64,000 nt of DNA from Utricularia gibba. Lineage: Eukaryota; Streptophyta; Magnoliopsida; Lamiales; Lentibulariaceae. Shown here one piece after another: positions 33,566 to 42,400 of this stretch; within the stretch, counting starts at the first letter, position 1; every line of letters begins with the position of its first letter. The position numbers and the translations under genes are program-made. The notes beneath the pieces are model-generated. The model was not told the origin of the DNA and searched no databases. It was given only the letters and a program-made list of their open reading frames with translations. The stretch covers positions 248,001-312,000 of the forward strand of contig NEEC01000027.1 of the NCBI GenBank assembly GCA_002189035.1, read 5' to 3'.

Positions 33566-35577
33566 TCAGCATCCCGGTTCAGGAGACAACACGGCATTCA
33601 TTTGATTCATTGCTCCTGAAATCCCAACCCTGCTAACTAAACTCCGTACCACACAGCTCCATATGGAAGCACCCGGGGTGATCCCATCGCTTATCATGGC
33701 TCGAAGTTGACACTCAGCTGCATCGAAATCAAACTTCTTGCATAAGCCATATATCAGACTAGTGTAACCAGCGGTATCACAGCTCAGCCCCTCCTTCCTC
33801 GATGATTCCAAAACTTTTGTAGCTGATTCAATGTCACCCTGCTTAGAGTATGCTTCAATCAGCGTGTTCAAAGTGAAAGAATCCGGCACCAGCCCTTGCC
33901 TTAACATCCTTGCCACAAGCTTCTCAGCCTGCTTGAGGTCGCCAAATAGGCACTGGCCATGAATCATGGTGTTGTATGCCACCAAGTTGAGTTTGATGCC
34001 CTTGTTTTCCATCTCAGTCGCGAGATCTGAAGCAAGCCTTTTCCTGTTACCTTTGTATAGACCATCCAGCAACTCATTATATGTCCTAACATCGGGCTTG
34101 CATCCATGCCTTTCCATTTCAGACAGCATCTCCATCGCCCAGTCTACCCGGCCTGCTGCGCACAAGCCTTCAATGAAGACGTTGAACGTAACAGTGTTTG
34201 GAGGAGACTTATCTCTGATCATGGATTGGATAACATCATAAGCCTGATGGAGCATGGAGTTCTTGCAGAGTGCTTCCACCATGCAGGTGTAAATTATGAC
34301 ATTTGGGCGACAACCAGCGACGATCATCTTGTTCCAAATATCAGATGCACCAAGCAAATCCCCAGACTTTGCATAACCATTCATGAGGGTGCCAAAGGTT
34401 GTGATGGTCGGAAGGCAGCCATTAGCCTTCATCATTTCAACAATTGACAAAGAATCATCCATCATCCCAGCCAAGCATAGACTGTGAATCAGTGTGTTGT
34501 ATGTAACTTCATTCGGAAAAACCGCATCTTTTAACATCTGAATCAACACTTGCCGCGCTTCGAGCCATCTTCCAGATAAAGAGAGCCCTTTTATCAAGGC
34601 AGTGAATGTGCGAACATTTGGAAAGCACCCTTTTACAAACATTTTTGCCAGAACAGCAAGTGCGAGCTCGATTTGCCGTGTTTCGCTGAGACCATTCAAA
34701 ATTGTTGTGTATGTAATCACATTTGGAGTCACTGTCCTCTCCTTCATGATATCCAGCAATCCTAATGCTTCTCTAATATTCCCTTCTTGGCAGAATCCAC
34801 TTATCAGTGCATTATACGCCGGAACACTCGGAATAAACTTCAAAATCAACTCACTGGCCTCTTTCACCTGGCCATTTTTACACAAAAACGATATGATTGT
34901 TGAATAACTCACATCATCTGGCTCACATCCCTTGCTCGCCATCTCTTCCAGCAACCTCAGAGCTGCAGAAAAGCTACTATTCTTACACAGTGCTTTCAAA
35001 AGAATGTTGTAAGTATACACGTTTGGCTCCAAGCCATCATTCTTCATGTTGTTATACAGGGGACTGATCATATGGAACTTACTCTCCCTAAGCAATGCAT
35101 CCAGTACATGATTATATATCCTCACCGTAGGTACACAACTAAACTCACGAATCCGATAGAAAGTTTTCAATACCTGCTCAACTGTTCCACAATGACCATA
35201 TGATTTAAGCACACTAACGAACACATCTTCTGAGCAATTTATCCCTTCCAACTTCATCTGTTGAAGAAGATACTGCATAACATCAACCTCCCCTCTACCC
35301 GCAAGCTTTTCGATCATTGCACCATATGTCCTGGGGTGTGCTTAAAAGAGCACGCATTGGTCACAAATTTGAAGTACTCTAATGATAGTGTAATATCATT
35401 TTCGCATCTCAACTTATTCAACACTTGACTTTCCTTCAGAAAAACTGCCGCAGCTTTCTCATTCTGCTCATCCCCCTTATTTTCCTCAAACTGAAAAGAC
35501 GGATTCGTGTTAAGGATGAAAGGGATAGAAGGCCTGCGCACTTTTAACATCAACGAGCGTCCCTCCCTCAAATACAT
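33566..35577 (-). CDS. Pentatricopeptide repeat protein, At3g48810-like, with a 1-base frameshift
   Basis: An intronless PPR gene in two frames. The N-terminal part starts at 35577 (MYLREGRSLMLKV) and runs about 82 codons to FKHTP. The remainder is one open frame of 583 codons from 35317 to 33566. Both halves match the same region of Arabidopsis At3g48810: FKHTP at the end of the first frame should be followed directly by the RTYGAMIEKLAG reading of the second. The switch sits in the CCCC run at 35333-35336 (GGGG on the plus strand), where a fifth C restores the frame. About 15 P-type PPR repeats of 35 residues are seen (VYTYNILLKALCK, VITYTTILNGL, VRTFTALIKGL and so on). P-type PPRs bind organelle RNA; targets are unknown. 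It is either a consensus error or a recent lesion. Confidence 0.88.
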
Positions 35578-36769: not shown

Positions 36770-37524
36770 TTAATTTGGGGGATTCGGATTTGAATCCGGC
36801 CGAACAAGAGGATCGTTGGAAGGCATTGGAGAAGAAGATCCAGTTGTTGAGAGCAGGTGCACCAACGCGCTCATGGCCCGAACCTACAAGAAGGTTTCAG
36901 CAGTCGTATCCTAAGTGCGCGATGGTAAAGTAGGCAATTGTGGGGGTGCAATTAATGTACCTGCATTTCCAGAGCGGGTATATAGTCGATAGTTTCTTCC
37001 AAAGTGACATGGAGAGGCTGTTTACGGCAACCGGGAATCAACCTTCTCAGAAGCCTGGCGCTTCGCTGGAAAGCCGGTAAATCCTTGGATTTGAAGGAGG
37101 AGAGAGTAGGATTGGATTTCTTGGTCATCAACCGGCGGTTACCGGTGGCTGCCAACCTCGTCAATTTACGCTGCTGTGACACCACAGTATTTTTCTTCAA
37201 CAACTTCGGCTTCACGCCGCTGGCGAAAATGGCTCGGCTCCATCGCGAGCGGCCTTTCGCCGTCCTCGCCAGTGCGTTGTTTGCGGCGTCGCGCACGCGC
37301 TGTTTAGAGGAAGCGCTGCCGCCTGTCATCCTGAGATGACGCAGCGCTTGGGATAGTTTATGTGAGTAAATTTGTAGCCGAGCGTTTGAATTCCATTGAA
37401 TGGACGATTTCTCGAGGAGAAATCCCGACTGATTTCCAGTTTCCTTGTCCAACTTCCTGCTCCTTGCTGATGAAGAAGTCTCGGAATTCACCAATTGATT
37501 TCGTGAAGACAGCGGCAACGTCAT
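36770..37524 (-). CDS. Atypical bHLH factor of the AIF / bHLH147-150 type
   Basis: Two exons, 37524-36961 and 36883-36770, give 225 residues. The first ATG (37524) gives MTLPLSSRNQL; the frame upstream of it has no ATG. The characteristic block begins YSHKLSQALRHLR, then RVRDAANNALARTAKGRSRWSRAI (residues about 90-115), as in bHLH147/148/149/150 and AIF proteins. The C-terminal helix-loop-helix half follows: RSARLLRRLIPGCRKQPLHVTLEETIDYIPALEMQVRAMSALVHLL. It lacks the Glu/Arg pair of DNA-binding basic regions, so it probably works as a non-DNA-binding partner that restrains growth-promoting bHLHs (brassinosteroid/PRE-IBH1 network). The splice site CAG|gtacat to tag|GTTCGG joins EMQ to VRAM in frame. 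Confidence 0.9.
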
Positions 37525-37636
37525 ATTGAGAGTTGAATCAGTAGGATCTGAATAACCAAATCGAGAGAAAAAGTGAGTAGATCCAGAGACGAACGACGCA
37601 CAAACCACCACCTAGAATCGGAAAAATCCGATTGCT

Positions 37637-37705
37637 TTACAGCATCCGCACAACACACGAATAAAAGAACACACAAATTTCAACGGGCGACACAACCGTT
37701 CTCAT
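37637..37705 (-). promoter_or_regulatory. Upstream ORF of 22 codons in the bHLH leader
   Basis: An ATG at 37705 opens a 22-residue frame (MRTVVSPVEICVFFY...) that closes with TAA at 37637-37639, 112 bp before the main ATG. It lies between the putative TATA element (about 37918-37928) and the coding start, so it should be in the mRNA unless spliced out. A regulatory role is inference. Confidence 0.4.
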
Positions 37706-37917
37706 AATGGCACGGATTCAAATCACGCCGATGATCACCTGAAGAAGCGAGCAAAATCGCAAGCCTGGCAACACGAATCTCCGATCTGGGAGAGAAATCG
37801 GCGAGAACTGAAGCCGGTGGTTAAAAGCGAAAAGAGCCTTAAAAGGAGATTGTCGATCAGCGGACGAAACCGCCAAAGGCCAAGTCACAGGTAGTGGTCT
37901 GATGATCTTCAACGCAT

Positions 37918-37928: not shown

Positions 37929-38550
37929 GACGGATGATAAGCTCATGCCACATCGAATTACTGCTGAATTTTCGCATTTAATAAATTTAAATGGTTCCGT
38001 TTTGTTGGGTCGGCTGTTGCCTTTTGGGCCATGTGCCATGTGCCATGTGGTGGATTTAGCCCAAAAGCACCACACGTCCCATTCTCATGTGCGTTTCGGG
38101 TATCGGCTGCTCCCTTTGTCTTGTCGAGCTTTTCCCTAATCATTAATATTTATTATTTTAATTACGCTAATCATGTCTACAAGAGTGGGTGTTATTGGCA
38201 CCATGTGTCCGTCCCATGGGGCCGCCTTCCTTAATCATGAGATGGTCCACGCGAAAGATAGGGGACAGTGTTGGTTTTAGCCTTTAGTTTCAGTTCTCAT
38301 TTTAAAAGCTGGGCTCATCAATTGAACCAATTAATGCCACCGTCCATAATTTTTATAATAAATTTAACCGGATTAAAATATTTTTAATTTTTAGTAATTC
38401 ACATAATTTTTTTATAAAAAGCATTAAATGAAATTAAAAAAATTGTGTATTCAACACTAAGAAATAAACTATGTTTAGTGTTGTGTATGTGGTCGGGCTT
38501 CGGTGTGTCGCGTCCAGTCGGTCCAGAGCTCAATAGAATAGAACTCAATT
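37929..38550. other. Intergenic between the bHLH promoter and the ncRNA promoter
   Basis: AT-rich in its right half. Short ORFs here are not convincing. A short direct repeat of TGCCATG lies at 38034-38047. Confidence 0.5.
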
Positions 38551-38554
38551 GGGT

Positions 38555-38597
38555 GGCCCAGAGTATCTGTCCAGTCGGCCCGACGCCGAACCCTAAA
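38555..38597 (+). promoter_or_regulatory. Site II and telo-box promoter of a putative snoRNA gene
   Basis: Two GGCCC-type Site II elements (GGCCCA at 38555-38560 and GGCCC at 38577-38581) are followed by a telo-box AACCCTAAA at 38589-38597. This pairing is typical of plant ribosomal-protein and polycistronic snoRNA gene promoters. Downstream there is no credible protein reading frame but there are C/D-type RNAs. Confidence 0.55.
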
Positions 38598-38683: not shown

Positions 38684-38818
38684 TTGATGAGATCTGCCTC
38701 TTTGCGGAGAGTCTGTTTCTCCGAAGATGCTACGCATTCGTAGTCTATTTCGTTTCGTGTCTGAAATGGAGGTAGGGAGACTTGTGTCGTGAGTCAGGCG
38801 AGGCGAATAATGCGCCTG
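38684..38818 (+). other. Hairpin-dense segment of the putative snoRNA precursor
   Basis: Three short perfect hairpins in a row: CGGAGA/TCTCCG (38705-38723, 7-nt loop), CTACG/CGTAG (38730-38743, 4-nt loop) and CAGGCG/CGCCTG (38795-38818, 12-nt loop). A C-box-like TTGATGA (38684-38690) and a CTGA (38761-38764) frame the first two. This could be another snoRNA, but no rRNA-complementary guide was recognised. Confidence 0.35.
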
Positions 38819-38864
38819 CTGTGATCCTGATCCAAGTTTTTCTCTTGTGAGTGCGTTCTTTTGC

Positions 38865-38940
38865 GTCCCGATGATGGCATGGAATCTTTGAGACCTGATT
38901 GTCCACTTGACGACGACTATAAGCAGTTCGTCTGAGGGAC
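38865..38940 (+). ncRNA. Box C/D snoRNA, predicted to guide 2'-O-methylation of 18S rRNA near C38
   Basis: All parts of a C/D snoRNA are in order. The 5' stem GTCCC (38865-38869) pairs perfectly with GGGAC (38936-38940). The C box is ATGATGG (38871-38877, one mismatch to RTGATGA), the D' box is CTGA (38895-38898), a C'-like TTGACGA lies near 38907 and the D box is CTGA (38932-38935). The 12 nt before D', AATCTTTGAGAC (38883-38894), are exactly complementary to GTCTCAAAGATT in the conserved 5' domain of plant 18S rRNA. By the D+5 rule the target is the last C of GUCUC, about position 38 by my count, a position I recall as methylated in Arabidopsis. The rRNA sequence is from memory, not a search. 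Confidence 0.78.
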
Positions 38941-39017
38941 CGAACTAAAAAATATATTATGATTTTGAGAACTTCTTGCCCTGTCCTCCTTTTTCGTGGT
39001 TGTTTTTCTGTTCGCTG

Positions 39018-39096
39018 AAATGATGATTGCACTGGGCTCTGAGCAGTAACTGCACCTTTTGATGCACAACGCAGCCTAGAAAGCTATATCTGATCT
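39018..39096 (+). ncRNA. Probable second box C/D snoRNA (possible 25S guide)
   Basis: It has an exact C box ATGATGA (39020-39026), a D' CTGA (39039-39042), a C'-like TTGATGC (about 39059-39065) and a D CTGA (39090-39093), about 75 nt overall, 80 bp downstream of the first snoRNA. The bases before D' include GCACTGGGC (39029-39037), complementary to GCCCAGTGC, which I recall upstream of the CTCTGAATG segment of eukaryotic 25S rRNA. That duplex is only 9 bp, and I find no clear terminal stem. Spacing and context support it; the target is tentative. Confidence 0.5.
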
Positions 39097-39403: not shown

Positions 39404-42400
39404 TCAGCGTGCAGGCGTTGAGAAGAAGATGACAGCAAAGTAGACCAGGAAACCAGCCACCAAGATGCCTGCGTAGATGTAGTTTTGAGAGGGTGGTTCT
39501 GGGAATTTGTATTGAATGCTACAGCATTTCATCTTCTCCCTCTCGGTCGCCAAAATGTGATCCACATACCTGCAGACAGACCCCATAGTCATGGGTGGAA
39601 TTTACCGGTACAGAATGGAGTGCACGGTTTAATCCAAAAGGAATGCTAGTCATTTTGATAAGAAACATGCTCTCAAGATCAAGTGTTATTCTGATGGTGA
39701 TTTCCAAAATGATGCAACGAAAAGGTGGGATTTCAGGGGCAAGGAAGTTGAGAAAGACGTACTGATGAGTGAAGATGGAGCTTTGGTGGATCTGAGAACT
39801 GTTCAAGCGTGCCTCTTCCAGTCTGTGATCATATAGTAGGGCAGACAGGTCCACAAGCTGCTCTTCCAGGTTCTGCCAATGTTTGGAAATGCTGATTAAT
39901 AACTAAAGCTTCACACTACTTATATTTGCCAAGGGAAGGGAGGGACGCCTACATCCAAATATTTCTCTATGCCGTCGACTAGTTCATGAGGGAATGGCTG
40001 CGGCAAGTTTGTTTTCTTCTTGTAGAATTTCTCCAGCCAGAGCTCAGCTGAGGTCTTGTTTTTTCTACCCTTCACTGGCTCTCCCAGAGGAGTTTTGAGG
40101 TACTCTACTGCAAAGGATTGGACAGCCTGGGAGGAAACACATGGTATCACGTAAATGTTGCAATCCAACGCAGGAAAAGTAGATGGCATGCTGGTGCCCA
40201 AGAGGTAACATAAAATGAACCACCAAAGACATGAGACTTGAACTCTATTCTGCAGAATGTAACGGAACTCACATTCGATATGTCTCTAATTCGATGAAGA
40301 GCGCCATCAACTTGGGAATATATCTGGTTCCTCTGGAATATAAGTTAACAAAAATTCCATTATTTGTCAATCCCGGTGTTCAGAAAAGTGAAACAAGTGG
40401 ATTGGGCTGGAGGTAATATTTACCAAAGCAACGTCTCTGAGCATTTGGCTCAAGCGAGAAGTGTTTGAAAAGGGTCCGAATGGATGACATCCAGCTGCCA
40501 AGAGCCAATTCACCACAGGCCTCTCATGAACATGTGAAGACTTTTCATATGGCGCACCCAATCCACCTACAACAGAAGCCAAACCAGCTATGATATGACG
40601 CTGAGCCTGCGAAGGTATGGCATGTCTTCGCTCCAACTCGGAGACATAACTGTCCAGATGGAAGACAGAACGAAAGAAATAAAACGTTAAACAAGCCATT
40701 AACTTTCTCGGACTATCAAGCAAAATGACACCGAGAGTCATGGATGTCTGCAATTTGGAATGCTTTGTAGTCACCTTAAGGGAATCTTCTCGCTTTGATG
40801 CTGAAGCACAATAACAACATCCTTACTCGTCCATACAAGACTATCATCTTCCATCATGAGGTTTTGATCCACATCAGCTAGAGATAGAACAAAACTGCAA
40901 TAAAGAAGTATGAGCCGACATGGAAGAGTTATTGGAAGTATTTTTTCAGCAATATAATATGCATTCAAATCATAATAAAAATGAAAGGATGAACGCACAC
41001 TGGAACAACTCTCGTTCCATAAGTTCGGTACAGGTCTCCATTCTTTTTTTGATCAGATCTCTTCTTTCCCTTGTATAGTTTACTGCTTGAACCATGAGAT
41101 GCCCAAAGAGGTTTGTTCTTTAATATGGAGTCCCCAGCAGCATCATTTTCATCCATCCATGTCTTCAAAAACAACATTTCCATGACAAGGGGAAACATAT
41201 TAATCACATACCAACAGGGACAACAACAGTGCGAAAATCTTTTGTTATCACATTCAGGACACTATACTAACCTGGCGAATGAAAAATCTATTTGAAAGAT
41301 TTGGATCAGACACCTCGAGGAGACCAGCAGCAAGGACATCAGCAGATCGTTCCATTTCCTGCAATGATTCAAGATTTGTAACATTTAATATTGATGATAT
41401 TATGCATGTAGTCAGTTCCCCGATGTGTGCAGAGGTGCTTGATCAGGGGGCATGAACATTTTTATATTTATTCAGAATAAAGTGCATTTATATGGCATAG
41501 AAGTTAAAGAAAGGCACCTCCTTAAGAATTGCTCCATCTAAGTATGTCTTGGAATGAACATGAAATCGCCCATCATTTCTTGTTTCTTGAAGAGAGTGGG
41601 CCCTCATTGCTTTAGAGAGTGCAATGGCCAATTTCTCATGGCGATGTAGTGGATGCATACCCCTAACTATTACCACTTCCTGCTCTTTATGAACCATCTT
41701 CCTGACCTGAAGATTGTCATTAAAACTACAAAATAAATAGCATTCCTAGCATAACAGCAGATATCACAAACCATACAAGGAAATCTGAGAAACCCATTCT
41801 AAACAGCCAGAGACAACTGATCAAATTTTATGACACAGAAGACCATAACAACAGCACGCCAGAATTCAGTCTCACCTCAGCCTCAATGGCTCCAACATCT
41901 ATACTAAAATTCTGGCCTTTGTCCATGATATTGTATCTGTTATGATTCTGAAGGGCAATGATTGGCACAAGCAACCTAGTGGTCATATCAACGGTTTCAA
42001 ACCTGGTAGAAGGTAGAATAAAGCCAGCAGGTAAGATATAAAAAAAAATCAACCACATGAAATGCAAGGACAAAATGTTACGCCTGTGTTGGTTGCCATG
42101 ATATGCACACCTAAGAGCTGAGATTATCATAAACATCAGCAAAAAAATTATACCTAATATCTGGAGCAACGACATGCTCTACTGTGGTTGAAATTACAGC
42201 AGCTAAACGTCCGAGAAAAACATCATGGGAAGGAAGTCCAGCACCTGAAACTGGTCTATGGAACAGCAAATTCTGCAAACGAGGCAGTGTTCTAGGATTC
42301 ACACTCCCTTCTTCAGTTTCAATCTTCCCATATGTACAAGGTCCAGCTGAGAGGTCGATCACTACAAATCTGGTTGCAGGTTTTATTTTTTTAAAAATGC

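Follow-up and report, generated by a model that had tools for sequence, protein, structure and literature searches.

The 64,000-nucleotide stretch of Utricularia gibba DNA analyzed here (the window) very probably carries, at a probability of about 0.96, a plant snoR66 gene that leads a snoR66-snoR118 dicistron, and we infer from the sequence that it is expressed and guides methylation of C38 in 18S rRNA. The locus at 38865-38940 is an added member of the described snoR66 family, not a novel snoRNA, and its target is already known.

The whole window was scanned with 4227 Rfam models at their curated gathering cut-offs. Only two matches exceeded these cut-offs, namely snoR66 (RF00202) and snoR118 (RF01424). 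The snoR66 match, at 38865-38940 on the plus strand, scored 56.4 bits against a gathering threshold of 43 (E 2.5e-9). The cmscan alignment covered the full model, positions 1-76 of 76, and the consensus was followed in the guide as well as in the C, D', and D boxes. The original prediction had called this segment a box C/D snoRNA from its letters alone, and the covariance model matched it. The elements of the gene were located as follows.

38865..38940, plus strand: snoR66 box C/D snoRNA, about 76 nt including the terminal stem (Rfam RF00202)
38865..38869, plus strand: 5' arm of the terminal stem, GTCCC, with 5/5 pairs to GGGAC at 38936-38940
38871..38877, plus strand: C box, ATGATGG, whose last base is G against RTGATGA, like the Rfam consensus
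38883..38894, plus strand: D' guide, AATCTTTGAGAC, with 12/12 Watson-Crick pairs to 18S nt 34-45 in antisense
38895..38898, plus strand: D' box, CTGA, from the sequence
38907..38913, plus strand: C' box, TTGACGA, against TTGATGA in both the paralogue and the Rfam consensus
38919..38925, plus strand: possible extra-pairing element, ATAAGCA, complementary with one G-U pair to 18S nt 29-35, suggestive only
38932..38935, plus strand: D box, CTGA, from the sequence
38936..38940, plus strand: 3' arm of the terminal stem, GGGAC, with 5/5 pairs to GTCCC at 38865-38869

The C, D', C', and D boxes thus lay in order within the terminal stem. The stem, the C, D', and D boxes, and the guide preceding D' were all found exactly where they had been placed beforehand. 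The C' box had gone unmentioned in the original prediction; it differs from the paralogue and the RF00202 consensus by a single T to C change.

Box motifs are short and common, and the segment could in principle be a chance arrangement of boxes and an 18S-complementary 12-mer with no snoRNA at all. As a null, the window was shuffled 200 times under a Markov (dinucleotide) model, and both strands were compared with the initial 408 nt of 18S. A 12-mer antisense to 18S and immediately 5' of CTGA occurred 0.01 times per shuffle (200 shuffles, both strands), and the full snoR66 architecture appeared in 0/200. The E-value of the RF00202 match, a retained paralogue, and an adjoining second snoRNA likewise speak against coincidence, and the family match together with the paralogue rules it out, leaving it a practically negligible probability. 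That chance co-occurrence would be very unlikely, as had been claimed, is borne out by the Rfam E-value and the shuffles. On sequence grounds, 38865-38940 is confirmed as a genuine box C/D snoRNA.

Pairing of the guide was examined against the 18S rRNA of U. gibba itself (locus L001), the comparisons resting on the first 408 nt of 18S, the part found in the assembly. Aligning 38883-38894 with this sequence gave a perfect 12-mer complement, with all 12 of the 12 bases paired at nt 34-45, as expected from the complement predicted near the 18S 5' end. The exact 24-mer GTCTCAAAGATTAAGCCATGCATG was found once in the assembly, in this same 18S locus, and the 16-mer comprising the guide and D' box, AATCTTTGAGACCTGA, occurred exactly twice in the genome, both times in a snoR66 copy. 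The base facing position D'+5 is C38, the nucleotide named in the original prediction. In Table 1 of the Arabidopsis RiboMeth-seq map, 18S C38 is listed as methylated and attributed to SnoR66 (Wu et al. 2021, PMC8053127). The Rfam match, the perfect pairing with the species' own 18S, the paralogue with its compensatory stem change, and the Arabidopsis C38 site mapped to SnoR66 together support the prediction that the window snoR66 guides 2'-O-methylation of 18S C38.

A D box preceded by a spacer of fitting length exists, and this spacer might guide an additional or different target. We consider this very improbable. The bases adjoining the D box differ among the window copy, the paralogue, and the Rfam consensus, so that a conserved second guide beside D was rejected; the AUAAGC common to all three is too distant from the D box to satisfy the D+5 rule, and among the Arabidopsis table entries examined SnoR66 stands at C38 only (PMC8053127). 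In the window copy, AUAAGCA can pair with 18S nt 29-35, one of the pairs being G-U, and this site adjoins the main duplex. The number of pairs there was 7 for the window copy, 7 for the paralogue, and 9 for the Rfam consensus. The pairing was not significant for either copy, being equalled in 878/5000 and 715/5000 composition-preserving shuffles, and was suggestive for the Rfam consensus, being equalled in 55/5000. The element and guide sites overlap at 18S nt 34-35, so that all pairs cannot form simultaneously. In Arabidopsis, extra pairs beside the primary duplex are frequent (45/104 sites; PMC8053127). We tentatively propose, at somewhat below even odds, that snoR66 grips 18S by two adjacent duplexes, the D' guide at nt 34-45 and AUAAGC(A) at nt 29-35, and that the D-side is maintained for this additional pairing, not for guiding a second site. 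If true, the dual duplex would be another case of the extra pairing known at nearly half of the Arabidopsis sites.

Genome-wide searches with the snoR66 model returned two matches over the cut-off, the window and C1:7756735-7756810 (57.9 bits), and those with the snoR118 model also returned two, the window and C1:7756872-7756949. The region C1:7756735-7756949 is thus a second snoR66-snoR118 pair in the same order as in the window. Weak matches to snoR66 or snoR118 elsewhere in the genome (L004-L007, L010-L017) all fell far under the cut-off; among them, L010 contains GCACTGGGCT with no D' box directly after it, and nothing snoRNA-like was seen at L004. On alignment of the window with the C1 locus, both snoRNAs were similar, whereas the sequence between them and upstream had diverged. 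The snoR66 guide was identical and the boxes were conserved. The terminal stem, GTCCC/GGGAC in the window, is CTCCC/GGGAG in the paralogue; both sides of the outer pair have changed, from G-C to C-G, and the stem is retained. Similarity in the flanks was found in blocks at 37557-37758, 37839-37905, 38013-38210, and 39434-39501, which suggests that the paired loci arose from a segmental or whole-genome duplication.

With two snoR66 copies in the genome, expression of the window copy could be low, or this copy may be a decaying or silent duplicate while the C1 copy provides the working RNA. Its C' box (TTGACGA against TTGATGA) and its slightly lower score (56.4 against 57.9 bits) are in keeping with decay. 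C' boxes are commonly degenerate, however, and the window copy has kept its C, D', and D boxes, its guide, and its 5-bp stem intact. The maintenance of the stem by a two-sided change between the copies and the presence of a telo-box and site II motifs at both loci also argue against a decaying or silent copy, a reading that we regard as improbable.

The second match of the scan and the putative promoter elements upstream of snoR66 are listed below; none of these, nor the C1 pair, had been noted in the original prediction.

38555..38560, minus strand: site II element, putative promoter, TGGGCC on the minus strand (GGCCCA on the plus)
38589..38597, plus strand: telo-box, AACCCTAAA, putative promoter, by motif; a telo-box is also present in the paralogous locus
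39016..39096, plus strand: second box C/D snoRNA, snoR118 (Rfam RF01424, 72.9 bits, gathering 44, E 3.1e-11)

snoR118 lies about 75 bases 3' of snoR66, both on the plus strand. The Arabidopsis map attributes 25S C2198 to SnoR118 (PMC8053127), and by family membership the window snoR118 would probably direct 2'-O-methylation of the same nucleotide. In the search for this target, 25S rRNA was not found in the assembly, and none of the 30 AGCCCAGTGC contexts examined resembled rRNA.

At the paralogous C1 locus, three site II motifs accompany the telo-box. None of the TATA-box variants searched for was found in the window copy's interval from the telo-box to snoR66. In Arabidopsis and rice, snoRNA clusters that are transcribed independently are marked by telo-box and site II elements (PMC3022908, PMC4660826). 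An intronic location of snoR66 was also considered, as a splice-donor-like GTGAGT lies near 38847. This motif is missing from the paralogue, and a non-intronic unit is preferred on that account. From the arrangement of these elements, snoR66 and snoR118 likely form an RNA polymerase II (Pol II) dicistron. The telo-box/site II promoter would drive a non-coding precursor containing both snoRNAs, endonucleolytic and exonucleolytic trimming would free them, and the freed RNAs would assemble with fibrillarin and the other C/D core proteins. The D' guide of snoR66 would then pair with 18S nt 34-45 and direct 2'-O-methylation at C38.

A block of about 30 nt at 38803-38832, 5' of snoR66, was conserved in the paralogue (C1:7756683-7756698 and surroundings). 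Rfam run over this block at permissive settings gave no match. A third snoRNA here was rejected, as the block has no Rfam match and no visible C box, and its hairpin is not kept in the paralogue. A long hairpin was predicted just upstream of snoR66 at 38774-38843 (-28.3 kcal/mol, z -2.9), against z -0.7 to -1.1 in the paralogue. The conserved block also contains a tiny reading frame, Met-Arg-Leu-Leu-stop, which is ATGCGCCTGCTGTGA at 38810-38824 and ATGCGCCTGCTATAA in the paralogue. The two versions show two differences, one synonymous and one stop-to-stop. Conservation of this reading frame and of the 38803-38832 block may be due to chance.

Two further reading frames were observed on the minus strand. 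That at 33566-35341 encodes a pentatricopeptide-repeat protein with many PPR repeats (Pfam). The other, at 36952-37611, is on the strand opposite the snoRNA promoter and upstream of it; Pfam gave no match to this frame, and we take it to resemble an IBH1/AIF-type atypical bHLH protein.

The snoR66-snoR118 gene pair and its duplicate are an addition to the annotation of the U. gibba genome. The window snoR66 supports conservation of the Cm38 guide beyond Arabidopsis, and general knowledge of C/D snoRNAs is left unchanged by the pair. Compared with Arabidopsis SnoR66 and RF00202, the window gene has an identical D' guide core, the same target nucleotide C38, the same C-D'-C'-D order, and the same deviating C box. 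It differs from RF00202 in variable positions only, namely the D-side spacer sequence, one base of the C' box, and a slightly shorter variable region. The snoR118 copy at 39016-39096 likewise matches RF01424 over its full length at 72.9 bits, but with a shorter variable loop. Like the telo-box/site II snoRNA clusters described in plants (PMC3022908, PMC4660826), the window has both motifs 5' of same-strand snoRNAs that lie close together.
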